Below are positions 41,640 through 45,387 of a stretch of 46,566 nucleotides of DNA, piece by piece (position 1 is the first letter of the stretch; each line of letters starts with the position of its first letter). The translations under genes were made by a program, and so were the position numbers. Under the pieces are notes generated by a model. That model had not been told where the DNA came from. It was given only the letters and a program-made list of their open reading frames with translations, and did not search any database. Source of the stretch: Acidocella aminolytica 101 = DSM 11237 (GTDB lineage Bacteria; Pseudomonadota; Alphaproteobacteria; Acetobacterales; Acetobacteraceae); assembly GCF_900129125.1 (NCBI RefSeq), contig NZ_FQVJ01000007.1, positions 1-46,566 on the forward strand, written 5' to 3'.

Positions 41640-42101
41640 TTAGCCGATATAAAATAGCCCTTCGACCTCAACCGCCGCGTCCAGGGGCAGGGAGGCCACG
41701 CCAACGGTGGAGCGCGCATGGCGTCCAGCCTCGCCAAACACCGTCACCGCGAGGTCCGAGGCACCGTTCATCACCACCGCATGCTGGGTGAAATCCGGCG
41801 TGCAGGAGATAAACCCGCCCAGCCGCACCACCTTGGTAATGCTGTCCAGCCCACCCGGCAGCGCGGCTTGCAACTGCGCCAACACATTAATTAGGCAGAG
41901 CCGCGCGGCGTGCTGGCCTTCTTCAAGCGCCACCGTGGCGCCGAGCTTGCCGGTCACCGCCACCTTGCCCTCCATGGCGGGCAACTGGCCGCTGACCGTC
42001 ACCAGATTGCCCGTGATGCTCACCGGCACATAATTCGCCACGGGGGCCATGGCCTGCGGCAAGGTAATACCCAGATCAGCCAAACGATCGGAAATGCTCA
42101 T
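41640..42101 (-). CDS. RidA family protein (Rid/YjgF)
   Basis: 153-residue RidA/YjgF-family trimeric enamine/imine deaminase type protein. Members hydrolyse reactive 2-aminoacrylate and related enamines formed by PLP enzymes. Features include VSITGNLVTVSGQLP (strand with the substrate-loop), the H-A-RLCLINVLAQLQAAL helix, and the C-terminal ARSTVGVASLPLDAAVEVEG with the conserved substrate-binding Arg (position equivalent to Arg105). It is longer at the N-terminus than E. coli RidA and belongs to the subgroup often annotated as RidA-like with an extended first helix. It lies 3 bases after the NrdJ-like gene, so the two are probably one transcript. Confidence 0.88.
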   Translation of the reverse strand: MSISDRLADLGITLPQAMAPVANYVPVSITGNLVTVSGQLPAMEGKVAVTGKLGATVALEEGQHAARLCLINVLAQLQAALPGGLDSITKVVRLGGFISCTPDFTQHAVVMNGASDLAVTVFGEAGRHARSTVGVASLPLDAAVEVEGLFYIG

Positions 42102-42104
42102 GGA

Positions 42105-43601
42105 TCAGCTCACCAATTTCAAATTACGGCGGCGCTCACGCGGTGCAGGGGCCGGCAGGTCCAGCGGCAGCAGCGGCGCACGCTCGGCGGCACCCTCGCC
42201 CACGCTGTCCGCCTCGTCAATGCTGGCCTGGGCCAGGTTGGTCTGGCCCAGATAATTCACAGCCAGATTGCGGAACACATAATCCAGCATGGAGGTCGCG
42301 GCGGGCACGGCCGGGTCGCCCTCCACCACGCCGGCGGGGCCAAAGCGGGTGAACGTAAAGGCTTCCACGTAATCCGCGAGGTTAACGCCATGCTGGAGCC
42401 CGATGCTAACGGAAATAGCGAACGCATCCATTAGCCCCCGGAAGGCCGAGCCCTCCTTATGCAAGGCGATGAAAATTTCGCCCAGGCGGCCATCTTTATA
42501 TTCACCGGTGGAGAGGAACAGCTTGTGCCCGCCCACGGCCACTTTCTGCGTATAGCCGCTGCGCCGGGCAGGCAGCGTCTCGCGGGTGGATTCGTGGCGC
42601 GGCGCCAGCGGTGCGGCGGGGCGCGCGGGCATCACCGGCACTAACTCGGCCAGTGCATCGTGCATCGCGGCATGGGCGGCGGTGCGCGGCAGCGGGAAAA
42701 TTTCTTCCCCGCCCACCATCCGGGCGAGGGCTCCTTCTGCCGTCAGCCCGCGCGCCGCCAGGGACTGCAAGGCCCAATCGGCCAATTTGCCATCCGCATC
42801 GAGGGCCGACAAAGCCGGGGCGAAATTCACCTGAGCCGCGCCCAGCAGCGCTTCAATCTCGGGTTCGTTCAAAAAGCCCAGCAGCGTTTCGTGGCGCCGC
42901 GCCCCAGCCTGCGCGGCCTCGGTCTGCGCCGCGCGGGCATCCGCGAGCAGGCCGGGCAGGGGGCAGGTTTCCGGCAGTTTCGGCGTGGTGATCTTGTGCC
43001 CGGCGCCGTTCAGCATCCGCGCGGAGGCAGTATCCGCCTCAGCGCCGATAAAGCCCGCCAGCATCACCGCCAGATCCTGGGCTTCCGCCGAGTCGTAGGC
43101 CAAACCCAGCCGCGCCAGCAGCAGGTTGAAGTTTGTGAATCCAAGGCGCAGCCGCGGCTCGCTTGGCGCGGCCAGGGTCAGGGCCGTCACTGCCAGCCGT
43201 ACGTCCCGGCCCAGCGCGACGCTGTCGAACACGCCTGCCTCATCCAAATAAGCGGCGGGGTTAAACACGAAACCCGGCTGCCCGGCGGCACGTTTGCGCC
43301 AGACATTGGCGCTGGGGCTGGCGCGGTGGGTGGCCAGCATCGCGTGCAGCCTGGCGGCGAGTCCGTCCTCTATCCCGGCGGCTTTGGCCCGCGCGGCCAG
43401 CGGAGCGATCCAGCTTTCCGCCGCCTCGGCGATATGCAGCATTCGTTTGCCCGGTAGAATGGCGGCCAGCCCGTCCGCGGCACGTTGACCCCAGGCGGCG
43501 GGAAGGGTCGCCAGCACGAACGGTGCATCAGGATCAGCCGCTGCCTCAAAGGTGGCGAGCTTAATACCGTGCCATGATTTATCGGTTCGGATTTGTGCCA
43601 T
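42105..43601 (-). CDS. Degenerate NrdJ-like protein with TSCPD domain
   Basis: 498 residues, related piecewise to class II (B12-dependent) ribonucleotide reductase NrdJ, normally about 1200 residues. Residues 30-48 ([18 protein letters not shown] region) recall the NrdJ N-terminus. Residues 123-195 ([18 protein letters not shown]..., [21 protein letters not shown], ...[13 protein letters not shown]) recall the core segment that follows the catalytic loop. Residues 343-453 ([70 protein letters not shown]) match the conserved TSCPD end. Between them the active-site cysteines, the N-x-C-x-E loop and the redox CxxC are missing: the only Cys is Cys213. It cannot be a working reductase. RidA follows 3 bases away. 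NrdR-box-like repeats lie 33-80 bases before the start. Confidence 0.8.
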
Positions 43602-43633: not shown

Positions 43634-43681
43634 AAAGTGCATCTTGTGGTGAATCTGCCTGTCAGCCACAGAATCTTGTGG
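43634..43681 (-). promoter_or_regulatory. Tandem NrdR-box-like repeats upstream of the NrdJ-like gene
   Basis: CCACAGAATCTTGTGG (43666-43681) is a 16-bp sequence with palindromic ends CCACA/TGTGG and an AT centre, fitting the NrdR consensus acaCwAtATaTwGtgt at most positions. A second copy of its right half, ATCTTGTGG (43641-43649), stands exactly 32 bp away, the usual NrdR tandem spacing, within AAAGTGCATCTTGTGG (43634-43649), whose left half is poor. The downstream edge of the first box also overlaps TGTGGATAG (43677-43685), 8 of 9 to a DnaA box. The sites lie between divergent genes, so either side could be controlled. Confidence 0.6.
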
Positions 43682-43760: not shown

Positions 43761-44183
43761 ATGAGCAATGCAGCCCAGACTCCGGCCGCGAGCGGCCCCT
43801 CCGCCAAGGCCCGGCCGCTCGGCCTCACGGGTCTTATCCGTAACCCCGGCCTGTACTTCCTCACGCTGTTCCGTGGCCGCTTTGTCGGCCGGGACGAGGC
43901 AGGGAACCAGTATTTCGAGCGTCCCGGCAAACAGCGTGCGCGCCGCTGGGTAGTTTATGCCGGTGTGCAGGACCCATCCGTGGTGCCCCCCGAATGGCAT
44001 GCTTGGCTGCATCACCTGACCGACGCACCGCTCGCCGCGCCGCGCCGCTCCTGGCAGCGCCCACATTTGCCCAACCTCACAGGCACCGCGCAGAGCTACC
44101 GCCCCTCCGGCCATGATTATAAAGGCGGCCAGCGCGCCCCCGCCTCGGCCGATTATGAATCCTGGACACCGGATCAGACCTGA
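43761..44183 (+). CDS. NDUFA12-family complex I accessory subunit
   Basis: 140-residue homologue of the mitochondrial complex I accessory subunit NDUFA12 (B17.2), which binds on the peripheral arm near the subunits of the N-module/Q-module junction. Recognisable stretches: GRFVGRDEAGNQYFERPGKQRARRWVVYAG, VVPPEWHAWLHHLTDAPL and YRPSGHDYKGG, the classic NDUFA12 order (given here in pieces). In alphaproteobacteria these genes are typically separate from nuo, as here, about 15.6 kb from nuoN. Its stop overlaps the mlaD start by one base, so the product is made from the same message as two envelope genes. Confidence 0.92.
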   Translation: MSNAAQTPAASGPSAKARPLGLTGLIRNPGLYFLTLFRGRFVGRDEAGNQYFERPGKQRARRWVVYAGVQDPSVVPPEWHAWLHHLTDAPLAAPRRSWQRPHLPNLTGTAQSYRPSGHDYKGGQRAPASADYESWTPDQT

Positions 44184-44692
44184 TGGTCCGGCGCGTTCCT
44201 GAGCTGCTCGCCGGCTTCGCCGTCATCATCGTCGCTGCCTTTTTCCTGGTTTACGCGCTGCGTGGCGTGGGTGAGATCAATACGGGCGGATATATGCTGA
44301 AGGCGCAGTTCGGCTCAGTCGGCGGGCTAACTGTCGGCTCTGACGTCAAAATCGGCGGTGTGGTCATCGGGCATGTCGCGTCCGAGGAGCTGAACCCCAC
44401 CACCTATGCCGCGATCGTGAAGCTGGCGATCAACAACAACATCAAGATCCCGACAGACAGCAGCGCCTCCATCACCTCGGACGGTCTGCTCGGCGGGCCA
44501 TATGTTTCCGTTTCACCCGGCGGCTCCAATAATATGCTAAAGCCCGGGGCGAGCTTCCCGGTCACTCAATCCGCGATCAATCTTGAAGATCTGATCGGCA
44601 AGTTCATCTTCTCTATGGGCAACGGGTCCAGCAAGAGTCAAAGCGCTGGTGCTTCGTCCTCCTCCACCAATCCAGCGGCGTTGCCTCAGTAA
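44183..44692 (+). CDS. mlaD: MlaD-type MCE domain protein
   Basis: 169-residue inner-membrane-anchored MCE protein. A single N-terminal helix (about 8-30, LAGFAVIIVAAFFLVYALRG) precedes the MCE domain with YMLKAQFGSVGGLTVGSDVKIGGVVIG and the DGLLGGPYVSVSPGG turn, the signature of MlaD, which forms a hexameric ring in the MlaFEDB phospholipid-transport complex keeping the outer membrane asymmetric. The Ser-rich C-terminal tail is short. The MlaF and MlaE genes are not in the window; the NDUFA12-mlaD-DUF2155 order is a known alphaproteobacterial arrangement. Confidence 0.92.
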   Translation: MVRRVPELLAGFAVIIVAAFFLVYALRGVGEINTGGYMLKAQFGSVGGLTVGSDVKIGGVVIGHVASEELNPTTYAAIVKLAINNNIKIPTDSSASITSDGLLGGPYVSVSPGGSNNMLKPGASFPVTQSAINLEDLIGKFIFSMGNGSSKSQSAGASSSSTNPAALPQ

Positions 44693-45387
44693 TGCGTCTC
44701 TTGCTTCTCGCTTCGGCGGCCAGCTTGCTTGGCGGCGCCGCATTCGCACAAAGCCTGCTGGGCCAAAGCCAGCCCGGTGGGCAGAGCGAGCAACCCGCCA
44801 TTGCCGTGGCGCCGCCGCCCGCCGTGGTGGCGCAGCCCGCGGCTCCGGCGCCGGTGGCTAAGCCCAACCTCGTGGCGCCGCCGCCGGGGCTGGTGGAAAC
44901 CCCGCTGCCGCCGCCCGACGCCAGCCAGAGCGCTATCCCTGCCAATGCTGATAATGGCGGTAGTCAAACCATGCAGTTGCAGGCGGTGTCCCCCTCCGCG
45001 CCCCCAGCCGCCAGCCCCACCGCGCCAGCACCCGGCAGCGTTGCCGCGCCGCCTCCGGTGAATGACGTGCCGCCCACGCCGGACAATGTCTGGGTGCCGG
45101 GCAAAACAGCCACGCTGGGTGTTCTTAATAAAGTAGAGGGCAGCACCCAAACCATAACGATTCCGGTTGGCGGTCAAGCCACGGTCGGGGACCTTACGGT
45201 CAGCGTCCAGGCTTGCGTTGTGCGTCCCCCAAAAGCCCTGCCGGATGCAGCTGTTTTTGTCACCTTGCAACCCAAGGATGATAGCTCGGGTAGCCCGGTT
45301 TACCGTGGCTGGATGGTTCGTTCCGCCCCCGGCGCAACGGACGCTGGGAATGCAGATGAAGCTTTCCGCGTTATTAACTGCTCGTAA
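44692..45387 (+). CDS. DUF2155-domain exported protein
   Basis: 231-residue protein with a signal peptide (MRLLLLASAASLLGGAAFAQ, cleavage after AFA). A long Pro/Ala/Gln-rich linker (about 20-135) follows, probably disordered and spanning the periplasm. The C-terminal DUF2155 domain starts near WVPGKTATLGVLNKVEGSTQTITIPVGG, then GDLTVSVQACVVRP, YRGWMVRSAPG and a final Cys (VINCS). Two or three cysteines in this domain may pair. The function of DUF2155 is not established; it is found almost only in alphaproteobacteria and is often next to complex I accessory and mlaD genes. It starts at the last base of the mlaD stop (TAATG). Confidence 0.85.
   Translation: MRLLLLASAASLLGGAAFAQSLLGQSQPGGQSEQPAIAVAPPPAVVAQPAAPAPVAKPNLVAPPPGLVETPLPPPDASQSAIPANADNGGSQTMQLQAVSPSAPPAASPTAPAPGSVAAPPPVNDVPPTPDNVWVPGKTATLGVLNKVEGSTQTITIPVGGQATVGDLTVSVQACVVRPPKALPDAAVFVTLQPKDDSSGSPVYRGWMVRSAPGATDAGNADEAFRVINCS

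Follow-up and report, generated by a model that had tools for sequence, protein, structure and literature searches.

A reduced, apparently non-catalytic NrdJ retained at the ancestral nrdJ locus in Acetobacteraceae

In a 46,566-nucleotide stretch of DNA from Acidocella aminolytica 101 = DSM 11237 (contig NZ_FQVJ01000007.1; the whole stretch is called the window here), we identified a gene, termed the orphan, that appears to be an ancestral alphaproteobacterial long nrdJ eroded in place, of which a half-barrel remnant and the TSCPD domain have been kept. Judged from the sequence and its comparisons, this identity is very probable. The earlier note had placed the gene correctly at positions 42105..43601, and its strand is the minus strand, as the plus-strand reading contains stops. 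The gene and its parts are as follows:

42105..43601, minus strand: pseudo-NrdJ gene (the orphan), 498 amino acids plus stop, a putative active-site-less derivative of a long class II ribonucleotide reductase (RNR)
43257..43601, minus strand: N-terminal piece, residues ~1-115, weakly collinear with NrdJ 52-68 and 149-171
42597..43265, minus strand: degenerate second half of the RNR barrel, residues ~113-335, from Pfam, AlphaFold, Foldseek and profile-profile comparison
42168..42572, minus strand: TSCPD domain, with 57-62% identity to 14 long NrdJs aligned with the TSCPD domain
42108..42176, minus strand: orphan-specific conserved C-terminal tail, P-L-L-P ... R-R-R-x-L-K-L-V-S, replacing the NrdJ cysteine tail

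The reading frame is intact and codon use is normal, as had been noted, with a third-position GC content of 0.77 for the orphan compared with 0.69-0.78 in the six neighbours measured. The protein matched the NCBIfam model PRK07562 (B12-dependent RNR) with E 2.5e-63 and 214 bits, which is far under the curated cut-off of 1737 for this full-length model, and Pfam TSCPD (PF12637) with E 1.3e-9 and 38.7 bits, above the gathering cut-off of 22.8. Residues 153-196 gave a sub-threshold match to the RNR-barrel model (E 0.018), and at E<=0.01 the TSCPD model was matched by 33/33 aligned orphan homologs and the barrel model by 18/33. Profile-profile comparison (hhalign) with 31 long NrdJs placed orphan residues 113-479 on NrdJ columns 503-1116 in one collinear alignment (probability 100%, E 7e-68), and residues 1-335 alone, which precede TSCPD, also aligned with the long NrdJs (probability 98.3%, E 2.5e-14). 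The N-terminal pieces 31-47 and 83-105 fell on NrdJ 52-68 and 149-171, respectively; they were collinear, each match being weak (probability <10%). The AlphaFold model of the orphan had pLDDT block means of 82-97 over residues ~11-330 and a value of 74.8 for the whole model, and the top-ranked Foldseek match was 7b9q, the class II RNR of R. sphaeroides (TM-score 0.32, E 2.8e-8). The resemblance of the orphan to NrdJ is far beyond chance. NrdJ ancestry with the pieces in NrdJ order, as claimed before, is borne out by the collinear profile alignment, the PRK07562 match and the Foldseek ranking, the N-terminal pieces being individually weak. An unrelated fold in the middle of the protein, which the earlier note had singled out for checking, was rejected by the profile-profile alignment of the barrel remnant and by Foldseek.

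The TSCPD domain was modelled with pLDDT block means of 82-95. A fold search with this predicted structure returned ISCU chains within the top 50 as weak matches (E 0.55-0.8), with no hit whatever at E<=0.001, and weakly supports an IscU-like fold for the modelled domain. The C-terminal end had been described as nearly intact; this stood for the TSCPD domain and failed for the NrdJ cysteine tail after it, which is gone. The tail motif found in its place (R-R-x-L-K-L-V type) occurred in 44/45 full-length orphan homologs, a set made up of the window and the 44 loci left, out of 48 found, after exclusion of the fragment loci L068 and L070-L072. The nearest species-named relative among the loci found was Acidocella facilis (81%).

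We investigated the catalytic elements of NrdJ in the profile alignment. NrdJ region ~172-500 is absent from the orphan and region ~705-820 is largely unmatched, leaving the ten-stranded barrel incomplete. Within region ~172-500 lie what we take to be the first redox cysteine, the specificity site, the N-P-C-S-E loop and the second redox cysteine. The regions of both active-site redox cysteines, C199 and C487 (L153 numbering), are deleted. The N-x-C-x-E loop was found in 0/45 orphan homologs versus 31/31 long NrdJs (as N-P-C-x-E), and C-x-x-C within the last 60 residues was found in 0/45 orphan homologs, compared with a C-terminal C-x-x-C in 31/31 long NrdJs. Among the 26 long NrdJs in alignment A2, the catalytic cysteines and the loop did not vary. 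The internal deletion and the loss of catalytic residues recognised earlier are thus confirmed, the redox-cysteine regions, the radical loop and the cysteine tail all being absent, and these results indicate that the orphan is, by prediction, a catalytically dead pseudoenzyme. Its single cysteine, at position 213, was rejected as a functional residue: the position is cysteine in 10/33 aligned rows, and 6/45 homologs are cysteine-free. We attach no particular significance to it.

The genes on either side of the orphan bear on its origin:

43761..45387, plus strand: divergent genes that we take to be NDUFA12, MlaD and DUF2155, which anchor the synteny of nrdJ loci in Alphaproteobacteria and were tested for conservation
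41640..42101, minus strand: downstream RidA/YjgF-family gene, 3 bp from the orphan stop

The orphan had been thought to be a paralogue, made by duplication of nrdJ. A search of its own genome (99% complete) gave no second match to the orphan protein at E<=10, and no long NrdJ was found there. The RNR-barrel genes of this genome are a short NrdJ (798-codon frame), which scored just 113 bits against the long-NrdJ model, NrdA (649 codons) and the orphan remnant; the genome also contains the class I small subunit (NrdB). Outside the family Acetobacteraceae, NDUFA12 and MlaD were near and divergent from nrdJ in 16/23 long-nrdJ loci, with DUF2155 following in 11/16. The 7/23 loci without NDUFA12 comprised one on a 5.8-kb contig and six with 14-19 kb in view, which are real exceptions. 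Since the orphan occupies the NDUFA12 locus and no long NrdJ was found in its genome, the ancestral nrdJ was probably reduced in place, and the orphan as a duplicate of a resident nrdJ was rejected.

A long NrdJ scoring over the curated model cut-off was detected in 1/120 family genomes versus 84/142 genomes sampled across the class, so the proposed binding and regulation of NrdJ by the orphan cannot be a general rule where the long type is concerned. In one genome of genus g78 (G113), the orphan is beside NDUFA12 and a full long NrdJ, not beside NDUFA12, is located ~26 kb away. This long NrdJ groups with NrdJ of another family (support 100/91) and looks regained. All five g78 genomes inspected (G113, G189, G275, G237 and G306) have the orphan adjoining NDUFA12. 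With an orphan, an apparently regained long NrdJ and no class I small subunit match, G113 (L132/L133) is a possible case of a swap back to class II RNR.

The RidA/YjgF gene and the orphan are probably in the same transcription unit. The remnant has a RidA gene adjoining it in seven family loci (L220-L224, L230 and L231) and also in two genomes of other families (G044 and G467), and this arrangement, together with the orphan-specific C-terminal tail, would fit a neofunctionalised protein unrelated to dNTPs, in which NrdJ parts are reused, perhaps with the RidA-family protein. However, a RidA homolog is also present on 6/23 loci with an intact long nrdJ in other families, at distances of 0.2 to ~6 kb, and the RidA-nrdJ neighbourhood may therefore predate the loss of catalysis. 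We regard this explanation as doubtful, and the promoter evidence below bears on it in both directions.

We next consider the spread of the orphan in the family. Matches were found in 272/299 family genomes, 239/250 good ones and 94/102 genera, counts in which the 272 matches include partial ones and one G113 match is the long NrdJ. Sixteen family genomes with no or weak matches were chosen for inspection, and 12 of them had an NDUFA12 match. In six of these 12, belonging to genera g70 and g121, a half-barrel remnant adjoined NDUFA12; five of the six loci could be read through and showed no TSCPD, whereas a contig end truncates the other. No remnant was seen beside NDUFA12 in four g87 genomes, nor on the short contig of G110, and in G146 the contig ends. 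The four g87 genomes and G126 showed no orphan, and the two of these five that were tested for NrdB were both positive, suggesting that the orphan is dispensable there. A locus in a record titled Nitrosovibrio (L064) carried a typical Acetobacteraceae-type orphan and is probably a mis-binned metagenome contig.

Selection was estimated by the Nei-Gojobori method for 16 pairs. The orphan dN/dS was 0.067-0.189 overall, with overall dS up to 1.03; the barrel part gave 0.087-0.255, and TSCPD, in most pairs the lowest of the three orphan parts, gave 0-0.139. These values point to purifying selection on the orphan. The earlier impression that the gene looks selected rather than decaying is upheld by the family survey and by a dN/dS well below 1 in 16/16 pairs. 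A slowly decaying relic without function would account for the deletion of whole barrel halves and for the failure to find the orphan in g87 and G126, but the open frames across the family, the dN/dS values and promoter boxes that are conserved while most of the spacer between them varies make it very improbable. TSCPD as the sole reason for retention was rejected as a general rule, g70, g121 and G461, a genome of another family, having kept the barrel without TSCPD.

Two NrdR-box-like sites were identified upstream of the orphan:

43666..43681, minus strand: NrdR-box-like palindrome 1, 16 bp, upstream of the orphan
43634..43649, minus strand: NrdR-box-like site 2, after a 16-bp spacer (32 bp start to start), a poor palindrome

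All 45 full-length homologs of one set had the box pair upstream, at a distance of 32 bp in 43 promoters and of 31 bp in the remaining 2. In these 45 promoters, box 1 matched its consensus at 12-16/16 positions (44/45 at >=14) and box 2 at 10-15, and most of the inter-box spacer was far less conserved than the boxes. An nrdR gene is present. According to PMC12051234, NrdR sites are paired 16-bp palindromes with spacers usually of 15-16 bp, which the orphan box spacing fits. A genome-wide search with box 1 returned one exact site and two with 2 mismatches, with no clear regulon, and at <=3 mismatches it returned 22 sites versus 18 for the reversed-pattern control. For the long-nrdJ promoters, the short nrdJ and nrdA of the orphan's genome and the more distant loci, scoring was based on what we take to be the general NrdR consensus. 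Thirty-two long-nrdJ promoter extracts (29 genomes) reached or exceeded the score that marks the top 2% of their shuffled versions, the control being base shuffles of the same extracts and not real unrelated promoters. The orphan's own genome has one good box and no strong second box at nrdA, and none at the short nrdJ. Five TSCPD-less g70/g121 loci still had box pairs scoring above shuffles.

In Acidocella and many of its relatives, the orphan has kept an nrdJ-type promoter that carries two NrdR-like boxes. Such boxes did not prove to be a family-wide feature: at G100 and G085, two family loci that are more distant, the scores were no better than those of shuffles. In g78, a clear box pair was found just in G189, the boxes being degenerate in 4/5 loci, and among the seven reduced NrdJ loci outside the family the pair was present in G407 alone and absent in 6/7. 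NrdR control is therefore not a constant companion of the reduced gene. That the boxes are not universal is in keeping with a new role unrelated to dNTPs, whereas a link to dNTPs is favoured by their persistence in many relatives.

Outside the family, the NDUFA12 locus is occupied by an NrdJ derivative with no functional active site in seven genomes from six families:

Family f9 (G044): 282-codon frame with TSCPD and part of the tail
Family f98 (G465 and G573): frames of 278 and 280 codons with TSCPD and no barrel
Family f100 (G467): 667 codons
Family f146 (G549): 812 codons
Family f40 (G407; L205, 7426-11112): nearly full length, P-S-A-D-G-G replacing N-P-C-S-E, TSCPD intact, no C-terminal cysteine pair
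Family f94 (G461; L206, 7694-10570): 959 codons, N-S-F-A-E replacing N-P-C-S-E, no TSCPD and no cysteine tail

The N-x-C-x-E loop was found in 0/7 of these derivatives, and C-x-x-C near the end was kept in G044 and G549. No TSCPD was found in the 18-kb locus of G461, nor was this genome among the TSCPD matches listed. The G407 frame would easily be mis-annotated as an active B12-dependent RNR. The TSCPD region is also encoded by 17 viral contigs (L232-L248), which are 51-61% identical to the query in their best segments.

A TSCPD tree (57 rows, 133 columns), in which long branches are present, had three changes in its best topology, and a single origin of all reduced rows as one clade was not rejected (AU p 0.193). 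The latter result would be compatible with a single ancient loss common to all reduced lineages instead of repeated losses. That explanation is quite improbable given the three changes in the best tree and the different architectures, which include TSCPD only, half barrel plus TSCPD, a nearly full-length dead barrel, and barrel without TSCPD; moreover, a single loss would presumably require many separate regains of a functional long NrdJ at this one locus.

The class I small subunit was found in 7/7 dead-NrdJ genomes outside the family, 9/11 family genomes and 0/6 long-NrdJ genomes, counts that refer to chosen genomes and are uncorrected for kinship. The family genomes without it were G113 and the 82%-complete G110, and two of the nine with it (G122 and G126) have no orphan. 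This co-occurrence, together with the NrdR-like promoter in 45/45 homologs of one set, could mean that the orphan specifically regulates the class I RNR or docks onto it, tuning NrdA/NrdB in place of its old role in NrdJ. Such a partnership would have an analogue in Pseudomonas aeruginosa NrdJb, which, in the account given in PMC4520616, binds NrdJa in trans. A further analogy may lie in the IscU-like domain that NrdJb holds according to PMC9669993, section 2.4 of which calls the domain that separates barrel from zinc finger in long class II RNRs IscU-like and states that it had no reported role; we equate this domain with TSCPD by position, a name that does not appear in that section. Against this, the recorded role of NrdJb is thiol exchange, and the NrdJb-type dithiol-exchange cysteines are absent from the orphan, which has one non-conserved cysteine. 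In addition, G113 retains the orphan alongside a long NrdJ with no NrdB match, so the orphan is not simply an NrdAB partner. A role confined to regulating NrdAB is weakened by this genome, and we consider a dedicated class I partner unlikely.

The mechanism that we propose, tentatively and with the chances somewhat against it, is that the orphan is an NrdR-controlled, stoichiometric scaffold or regulator in dNTP homeostasis. Once dNTP synthesis had passed to the class I RNR (NrdAB), selection on NrdJ catalysis would have been released, while a second, non-catalytic function of NrdJ would have stayed under selection. NrdR would control the orphan jointly with the RNR genes, and the protein would act stoichiometrically on a partner that need not be NrdA or NrdB, docking as a rule through TSCPD and, as a second module, through the half-barrel. 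It counts against this mechanism that TSCPD is not always the part kept, the barrel being retained in g70, g121 and G461. So do the G113 orphan with no NrdB match beside it, the patchy presence of NrdR-like boxes and the genomes that manage with no orphan at all. More broadly, catalysis has apparently been lost alongside a class I RNR while gene, locus, frame and often promoter were kept, and we therefore argue that NrdJ may carry a selected non-catalytic function. The general proposition is that alphaproteobacterial NrdJ has such a second function, for which a dead reductase has been kept at its locus where a class I RNR assumed catalysis, both in Acetobacteraceae and on repeated occasions in other families, working in dNTP homeostasis and in many cases still under NrdR; we hold this to be nearly an even call.

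RNRs are regarded as enzymes whose parts serve nucleotide reduction, and a dead NrdJ under apparent selection across a family would say that a part of it matters without catalysis. Acetobacteraceae offer a clean handle on this part, which could be deleted there without touching dNTP synthesis. For genes annotated as "vitamin B12-dependent ribonucleotide reductase", the active site should be checked before dependence on B12 is assumed. Literature searches of titles and abstract starts yielded nothing on a pseudoenzyme form of bacterial NrdJ, on what TSCPD does or on an NrdR box in Alphaproteobacteria; judged by title, none of the Acetobacteraceae RNR papers listed dealt with this subject, and the Gluconobacter nrdJ/RNR papers were unrelated. 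The parts are known; what appears undescribed in the literature searched is the conservation of a dead form, its origin in place and its repeated appearance.

Herpesvirus R1 homologs are RNR large subunits that have lost catalysis and taken other roles. Unlike the orphan, they are viral and, as we understand it, of the class I type, and we know of no relation between them and TSCPD or NrdR. The orphan resembles the long alphaproteobacterial NrdJ (PRK07562/NF005736; R. sphaeroides 7b9p/7b9q) in its collinear homology, its locus, its TSCPD domain and, in many relatives, its NrdR-type promoter. It differs from long NrdJ in being without the catalytic and redox cysteines, the first half-barrel, the specificity site and the zinc-finger tail, and in its length of 498 versus ~1220 amino acids. 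P. aeruginosa NrdJb, a subunit of a split class II RNR, likewise has the domain that we equate with TSCPD, described as IscU-like in PMC9669993, on a chain apart from the catalytic barrel. Unlike NrdJb, the orphan is without the cysteine-bearing zinc-finger part for thiol exchange and carries a half-barrel instead.
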